Assembly (NCBI GenBank): GCA_022566355.1
Contig: JADFJB010000081.1
Span: 1 to 22,208, forward strand
Length of the DNA: 22,208 nucleotides
DNA from: a candidate division KSB1 bacterium
Lineage (GTDB): Bacteria; Zhuqueibacterota; JdFR-76; DREG01
Direction: 5' to 3'
Of this stretch, positions 6,699-8,645 are shown in pieces; the first letter of the stretch is position 1, and every line of letters begins with the position of its first letter. A program made the translations under genes and the position numbers. The notes under the pieces are model-generated. The model was given only the letters and a program-made list of their open reading frames with translations. It ran no database searches and had not been told where the DNA came from.

Positions 6699-7049
6699 TT
6701 AAAGATCAAATACTATTTTTAATGCTCGATTAATTTGTAGAATATGTTCTTTAGATATTTCACCAAGGATTTTTTCTAATCGATAACGTCGATCAATCGG
6801 ACGAGTTTGTAAACAATCTACGATCGACTTTTTTTGTAGACCATTTGATTTCGTAGGTTCAATTTCAACATTGGTTTTGATCCTAGCCTTTTTTTCACTC
6901 CAACCTGTAATTGGGATCACTTGAATTACAGGCACTCTTTCATTATAAACGTCGTTCGTTACAATTATACAAGGCCGAGTTTTTCCAGTTTCAGAACCCT
7001 TTGTTGGATCCAAATTAACATTTACAACCATACCGCGTTCAAGTTTCAT
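6699..7049 (-). CDS. mazF: MazF/PemK-family mRNA interferase toxin
   Basis: A 116-residue toxin of the MazF/PemK/CcdB fold, normal length for the family, expected to cleave single-stranded mRNA at short sequences in the cytoplasm. Family landmarks: RGMVVNVNLDPTKGSETGKTRPCIIVTND at the N-terminus (here residues 5-33), with the basic GKTRP loop holding the catalytic Arg. The conserved later block is KKSIVDCLQTRPIDRRY (about 73-89), including the S/T and Q-x-R residues typical of PemK-like toxins. Its ATG overlaps the antitoxin stop by four bases (ATGA), showing translational coupling, the usual toxin-antitoxin arrangement. Regulation is expected by the antitoxin binding its own promoter. It lies beside decayed genes, consistent with a horizontally acquired or addiction module. 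Confidence 0.92.
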   Translation of the reverse strand: MKLERGMVVNVNLDPTKGSETGKTRPCIIVTNDVYNERVPVIQVIPITGWSEKKARIKTNVEIEPTKSNGLQKKSIVDCLQTRPIDRRYRLEKILGEISKEHILQINRALKIVFDL

Positions 7050-7282
7050 GATTCAGGCCAATCAGAAATAGCAGAGTCAGTCAGCTCTTGAAGTTCAGAA
7101 TCTTCTTTATATATTTCTGCGTACAAGTCAGCCGATTCCTTTAAGCTTTGTAGTTCGAGTTTTATTCTCAATTCTTCAAGCGCTGCTCTTACCATCGAGC
7201 TCTTATCTTTAAAACCAAATTGAGAATATCGTTTTAGAAAATCAATTTGAGATTCTGCTACACTAAATTTTGCTTGTTGCAT
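7046..7282 (-). CDS. Antitoxin of the MazEF-type pair
   Basis: A 78-residue small protein directly upstream of the toxin, overlapping it by 4 bp. The N-terminal 35 residues (KFSVAESQIDFLKRYSQFG, then FKDKSSMVRAALEEL) have the pattern of a ribbon-helix-helix DNA-binding domain: a short strand, then two helices with a basic KSSMVRAAL second helix. The C-terminal half is acidic and helical (SADLYAEIYKEDSELQELTD), ending DWPES, as expected for the disordered segment that wraps the MazF dimer and blocks its active site. AGGCG lies five bases before the ATG. It probably autoregulates the operon. The assignment rests on position plus fold pattern; the exact antitoxin family is not determined. Confidence 0.8.
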   Translation of the reverse strand: MQQAKFSVAESQIDFLKRYSQFGFKDKSSMVRAALEELRIKLELQSLKESADLYAEIYKEDSELQELTDSAISDWPES

Positions 7283-7373
7283 TGTTACGCCTATTATTTA
7301 GGTTCTTATTATGGCTATTATATCACGACCCTAAATTAAGGACTTTATTCGATAAAATCAAATTATTATTATT

Positions 7374-7631
7374 TCTAATCTGATGGTAGCATGTTTCAAA
7401 AAATGCCAATATGATAACAAGTATTAGGAAGAAATATCCACGAATAGTATTAAATGTGTGGAGGAAAGATACACCTGGAAACTTTATGCATCCCGTCTGA
7501 TGACGTTTTCACGGATGTATGGATTCTGGAAGTATGTTTCCAACCTTGAACGAGACGAAACCCGCTGTTACCTGGAAATTTTTTTCGGATTAATGTCCAG
7601 AAAAAGAGTTGTGAATATTCCGGAGAATTAA
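7374..7631 (+). pseudogene. Sucrose synthase C-terminal remnant
   Basis: Reading frame 7374-7631 encodes the last ~85 residues of a sucrose synthase (GT4 glycosyltransferase, sucrose + NDP to NDP-glucose + fructose). The diagnostic C-terminus is clear: EERYTWKLYASRLMTF, then GFWKYVSNLERDETRCYLE, then FFGLMSRKRVVNIP, matching the family pattern 'EKYTWQIYS.RLLTL...YGFWK.VS.LDR.E.RRYLEMFY.LK.R'. Upstream the same frame gives FKKCQYDNKY, stop, EEIS, where the family has 'FF.KC..DPSYWEEIS'. The in-frame TAG (7425-7427) thus sits where Trp (TGG) is expected. No start, no glycosyltransferase core and no ribosome binding site remain; upstream is AT-rich. It is a relic of a full-length gene of roughly 800 codons, mostly deleted, next to a toxin-antitoxin pair. 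The match is from memory of the family, but the motifs are highly specific. Confidence 0.85.
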
Positions 7632-7685: not shown

Positions 7686-8147
7686 CTACTGTATCCCCAG
7701 CAACTCAACTTCAAAGATAAGAACTTCATTTGGACCGATGGTTCCCTGACCTCGCGCACCATAAGCTAACGAAGGCGGTATCACGAGGCGGTATTTACTG
7801 CCCACATTCATTAACAAAAGCGCTTCGGTCCAACCTGCAATGACGCCGGAAACAGAAAAAGTAGGCGGTGCGCCACCGTAGGAGCTGTCAAATTCAGTGC
7901 CATCGATTTTTGTGCCTCTATAATGAACGACAACGGTACTAGATATCGTTGGTTTCGCTCCGTCACCTTGAATGAGAATTTCATATTGCAAACCACTACT
8001 TGTCGTTATAACACCCTCTCGCTTGCCATTTGTTTCAAGATAAGCTTCACCTTCAGATTGTTCCGAAGATGTTGGTGAATCTTTCGAACAACCGGTGAGA
8101 ATAAAAAGTACTACAAAGAATTTTGCTAAATTGATTATAACTTTCAT
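7686..8147 (-). CDS. FKBP-type peptidyl-prolyl cis-trans isomerase lipoprotein
   Basis: A 153-residue envelope-attached prolyl isomerase that speeds folding of exported proteins. Residues 1-19 form a lipoprotein signal with lipobox LTGC (Cys20), followed by a Ser/Glu-rich linker (SKDSPTSSEQSEGEAY). The FKBP domain occupies about residues 47-153: VVVHYRGTKIDGTEFDSSY (active-site Tyr and Asp), VIAGWTEAL (the hydrophobic Trp floor), IPPSLAYG and the closing strand FEVELLGI. It lacks the long N-terminal dimerisation helices of Mip/FkpA, so it is a minimal single-domain form. There is no Asp at +2 after the lipid Cys (the residue is Ser), so outer-membrane sorting is expected under E. coli rules. 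It is transcribed divergently from the 79-aa gene; the 258-bp intergenic region is AT-rich and must contain both promoters. Confidence 0.93.
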   Translation of the reverse strand: MKVIINLAKFFVVLFILTGCSKDSPTSSEQSEGEAYLETNGKREGVITTSSGLQYEILIQGDGAKPTISSTVVVHYRGTKIDGTEFDSSYGGAPPTFSVSGVIAGWTEALLLMNVGSKYRLVIPPSLAYGARGQGTIGPNEVLIFEVELLGIQ

Positions 8148-8405: not shown

Positions 8406-8645
8406 ATGAAATCGCAGCCGGACATTCTTGCTGAGAATAAGAAAATTCGTAAAGCACGGCTCATGGTGGATTTAACATGCTCCATGCTGGCTCAATCCGA
8501 ATTAACCCAGGTTGAGATGATAAATCTAATTCGTGCCACACGCTTTACTGTTCTACAATTGTTCCCGGGTAAAGATAGTACTTTTGATTTGATCTACAAA
8601 CCGCGTTTAGAGCGGATTATGAATGAACGATTGAAATCTAATTAG
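8406..8645 (+). CDS. Hypothetical 79-aa protein
   Basis: A small cytoplasmic protein that I do not recognise. It is predicted mostly helical (ARLMVDLTCSMLAQSELTQ, then VEMINLIRATRFTVLQLFP), followed by a basic C-terminus (YKPRLERIMNERLKSN). A weak TAGGT ribosome binding site lies about seven bases before the ATG. No signal peptide or membrane helix. The stop codon TAG (8643-8645) lies inside the terminal inverted repeat of the MITE-like element, so the original C-terminus may have been a little different. The codon pattern and a sensible start support a real gene. Its location between the FKBP promoter region and cutA gives no functional hint. Confidence 0.6.
   Translation: MKSQPDILAENKKIRKARLMVDLTCSMLAQSELTQVEMINLIRATRFTVLQLFPGKDSTFDLIYKPRLERIMNERLKSN

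Follow-up and report, generated by a model that had tools for sequence, protein, structure and literature searches.

A sucrose synthase gene remnant at the edge of a mazEF module in a candidate division KSB1 genome

Is a short, interrupted reading frame beside a toxin-antitoxin (TA) pair what remains of a sucrose synthase (SUS) gene, and, if so, where did that gene come from and why does its homology end where it does? The frame at 7374-7631 on the forward strand, which translates as SNLMVACFKKCQYDNKY*EEISTNSIKCVEERYTWKLYASRLMTFSRMYGFWKYVSNLERDETRCYLEIFFGLMSRKRVVNIPEN*, lies on contig C81, the whole of which (22,208 bases) was analysed and is referred to here as the window; the draft genome comprises 4.62 Mb in 213 contigs and is 98.5% complete. 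The features on which the argument turns are as follows.

6699-7049, reverse strand: MazF/PemK-family toxin gene, 116 aa, intact (PF02452, 7.4e-28)
7046-7282, reverse strand: MazF-associated antitoxin gene, 78 aa, intact, product 83% identical in G004
7333-7361, reverse strand: conserved mazEF promoter-like pair TTGATT-17-TAATTT, from the comparison of eight mazEF loci
7362-7376, no strand: AT-rich junction between the mazEF promoter edge (7361) and the SUS fragment; blastn homology ends at 7371
7377-7631, forward strand: putative SUS C-terminal pseudogene fragment, about 80 codons and a stop, 5' truncated
7425-7427, forward strand: in-frame TAG where all intact SUS in the alignment have Trp
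7686-8147, reverse strand: FKBP-type peptidyl-prolyl isomerase gene, downstream neighbour of the fragment
8406-8645, forward strand: o8406, first gene of an order-conserved block

Identity and extent of the fragment

Sucrose synthase (EC 2.4.1.13) is a GT4 enzyme described by the model TIGR02470 and is represented in the PDB by the proteins of Nitrosomonas europaea (4rbn) and Arabidopsis (3s27). Both entries were matched by the translated fragment in a phmmer search (3s27, E=1.3e-19; 4rbn, E=6.4e-18). All of its PDB matches were SUS and TIGR02470 was its only NCBIfam match, which makes the similarity specific to SUS and not to other GT4 enzymes. The NCBIfam match covers positions 703-782 of the 784 in the model (E=1.1e-23) and scores 83 bits, below the curated full-length cut-off of 810 bits. 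A Pfam-A search of the tail gave no match. In a genome-wide SUS search the fragment was recovered at E=3.5e-23, with one TAG inside the match. The translated search proposed with the initial annotation was thus borne out in both PDB and NCBIfam, and the concern that shuffled sequence might match equally well can be set aside: with a local SUS-tail profile the fragment scored 101 bits, and the best of 2000 dinucleotide shuffles read in six frames scored 8.9 bits.

No SUS homology continues 5' of about 7377, and the downstream stop falls approximately at the natural SUS C-terminus. It is therefore well supported that 7377-7631 on the forward strand holds the last 80 or so residues and the natural C-terminus of SUS, and that it is a real gene relic. 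Its C-terminal residues, about 76 in number, align over their whole length with the SUS of Desulfonatronospira MAGs, N. europaea and Arabidopsis, and YTWKLY, YGFWKYVSNLERDETR and the native C-terminus are kept. Unlike an intact SUS gene, however, the relic lacks about 710 upstream codons (about 90% of the gene), is interrupted by a stop in place of a conserved Trp and has no partner gene for sucrose-phosphate synthase (SPS). Nothing is left of the N-terminal regulatory/tetramer domains and very little of the GT-B catalytic domain, so the relic can make no enzyme. It is a clear case of a gene fossil that escapes ORF callers and Pfam but that full-length family models, read through stops, can detect.

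State of decay

The expected Trp codon, which the initial annotation had placed at the in-frame stop, was confirmed by alignment: the TAG at 7425 corresponds to W in all eight intact bacterial SUS compared. Based on five intact homologues (four from Desulfonatronospira/Desulfonatronovibrio and one from a Thiobacillus MAG), 37 invariant sites were defined, and eight of them are changed in the relic, including the TAG and two Arg-to-Cys replacements. The differences between the relic and the Desulfonatronospira SUS number 23, 21 and 50 at the first, second and third codon positions, respectively. This third-position excess indicates that most of the divergence probably arose under protein selection, before decay. 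No frameshift was found in the remaining SUS tail of about 250 bases, which argues that the decay is recent or limited. The relic is both truncated and interrupted by an in-frame stop relative to intact homologues, and on these grounds we judge the SUS fragment to be a probable pseudogene. It is present in one copy, and no sister strain carrying it was found.

The mazEF module and its junction with the relic

The toxin and antitoxin ORFs beside the relic overlap by 4 bases, so that a MazF/PemK toxin gene is preceded by an overlapping antitoxin gene, as is characteristic of type II MazEF systems. The toxin is 78% identical in G004, which belongs to another genus of the same family; there mazEF lies in an unrelated setting with no SUS beside it. 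The antitoxin is shared by 9 of the 82 phylum genomes, and no match to it was found among the viral contigs searched. Eight mazEF loci of the phylum, namely that of the window and seven others (L051 and L040-L045), share TTGATT-17-TATATT or a variant of it, 64-79 bases before the antitoxin start. The promoter-like pair was found through this eight-locus comparison; a terminator search and a generic sigma-70 scan at the locus gave results at chance level. The module, a predicted TA system, resembles MazEF/PemIK type II systems in its PF02452 toxin, its small overlapping upstream gene and its own conserved promoter-like sequence, and differs from them in an antitoxin for which neither Pfam nor NCBIfam has a matching model. 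This conservation suggests that mazEF is an ordinary TA unit with a promoter of its own.

The DNA homology between this mazEF and that of G004 (blastn, 76.5%) covers both genes of the module together with their 5' region and stops at 7371, and SUS homology starts at about 7377, some 15 bases beyond the end of the promoter-like pair at 7361. The SUS gene was thus cut short right where a complete TA unit has its outer edge. The initial annotation had suggested that the mazF pair marks a replacement or integration boundary; as a statement of position this holds, and for the causal event two histories would fit. In one of them mazEF arrived and the 5' part of SUS was lost; in the other mazEF was already resident and a deletion extended as far as its promoter. 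No integrase or transposase was seen near the relic, and the longest direct or inverted repeat in the flanks, sought as a trace of insertion, was 9 bp, which is at chance level.

TA modules confer stability on chromosomal regions, integrons among them. If mazEF was resident, selection against losing antitoxin expression may, speculatively, explain where the deletion ended. The stronger proposal, that the deletion halted at the mazEF promoter because a cell that loses antitoxin expression is killed, and that the relic is the fossil of a TA-fixed deletion endpoint, is rather unlikely. The breakpoint at the promoter edge nevertheless makes a modest test case for the idea that TA modules limit deletions.

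Origin and history of the relic

Intact SUS was found in three of the 82 phylum genomes searched, none of the three belonging to the order of the relic, and none was found in the six order-mates searched; among the 82 genomes no degraded SUS other than the relic is conspicuous. Within its own genome, PF00862 (the SUS GT-B domain) had no match anywhere, and searches for further SUS pieces and for SPS returned matches only to generic GT4 proteins. The nearest intact genes found are those of Desulfonatronospira (57-61% amino acid identity), followed by the SUS of Thiobacillus (45%); identity to the three intact SUS of the phylum is 22-29% in an ungapped comparison and 32-36% by tblastn. The far closer similarity to Desulfonatronospira than to SUS of the same phylum favours horizontal acquisition, and a horizontal gain of SUS by this lineage is considered likely. 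In Desulfonatronospira the SUS gene is preceded by an SPS gene, which is absent from the genome of the relic. A tree of the relic tail (76 columns; support 35/0) is too weak to name the donor. The relic had no match among the viral contigs searched, and the plasmid search returned only a distant Pseudanabaena SUS (28%). A literature search found no paper pairing SUS with Desulfonatronospira. The suggestion that the gene was once present in this lineage or in a donor proved right, with the data favouring a donor.

To the right of the relic, the block o8406-CutA-MBL-fold-TonB-ExbB-ExbD keeps its order largely in other genomes of the order. Its first gene, o8406, encodes 79 aa with 47-61% identity across the order, is kept near CutA and matches no Pfam or NCBIfam model. 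A gene that we take to be WbqC-like from its sequence adjoins o8406 in G004 and G005 and lies three genes before it in G001. The best match to this gene in the window's genome is on a different contig, and FKBP, the SUS relic and mazEF occupy its place. A synteny break is therefore placed between 8147 and 8406, with the relic in lineage-specific DNA. The intact SUS that the initial annotation had proposed to look for at the same position in relatives was absent from all three order-mates whose contigs reach there (G004, G005 and G001).

These observations also bear on the possibility that SUS came already as a fragment, as a passenger with mazEF or FKBP, and that an intact SUS was never present in the lineage. 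Being another version of how the same relic arose, it overlaps the preferred explanation. It would agree with the lack of SUS and SPS elsewhere in the genome, of intact SUS in the order-mates and at the syntenic place, and of a close FKBP ortholog in the six order-mates, as well as with the synteny break right beside FKBP. The missing integrase, transposase and repeats, and the mazEF of G004 without SUS, speak against it, and arrival as a fragment is regarded as a serious possibility that falls short of being probable. It is very improbable that the 57 codons from the GTG at 7458 (VEERYTWK...), the longest ORF after the TAG, are maintained as a small protein: they are open and free of frameshifts, but the start is GTG with no clear ribosome-binding site within 20 bases upstream, an isolated SUS tail has no known role, and an Arg-to-Cys change falls inside the ORF at a site conserved in the five homologues. 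Equally remote is an assembly chimera in which the end of a foreign SUS was joined onto the genome. A draft of 213 contigs and the foreign affinity of the relic might invite it, but a chimera would connect the ends of contigs and would not leave a piece of 255 bases lying between two other genes; moreover, the relic bears marks of decay, its GC content (0.37) is low like that of the neighbouring mazEF (0.34-0.35), and the mazEF on one side is also present in another genus of the family.

The locus is thus very probably the non-functional remnant of a SUS gene, itself probably acquired horizontally, that was cut off where the mazEF promoter ends and has since gathered point mutations. A SUS gene akin to those of Desulfonatronospira and beta-proteobacteria would have entered the lineage by horizontal transfer, and all but its last 80 or so codons would then have been lost. 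The junction itself is found where the promoter of the intact mazEF module has its outer edge; the loss by deletion that had been proposed for this place is plausible, and the need of mazEF to stay whole might, as a speculation, account for where it stopped. The tail is now decaying by point mutation, as seen in the stop at the invariant Trp, the Arg-to-Cys changes and other conserved sites. The relic would record a lost, probably horizontally acquired capacity for cleaving or making sucrose in a lineage that is now without the pathway. It is real, yet ordinary in kind, being a product of ordinary gene decay. It is like other truncated, horizontally acquired bacterial pseudogenes in its 5' truncation, stop codon, single copy and lineage-specific synteny break, and only its breakpoint at a TA promoter edge is unusual.

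Elsewhere in the window, what looks like a one-base frameshift, close to a T5 run at about 496-500, breaks the first VPS10/sortilin-like gene in two (2-502 and 387-2420). Both frames read as one protein, and either an error in sequencing or a further pseudogene could account for the break.
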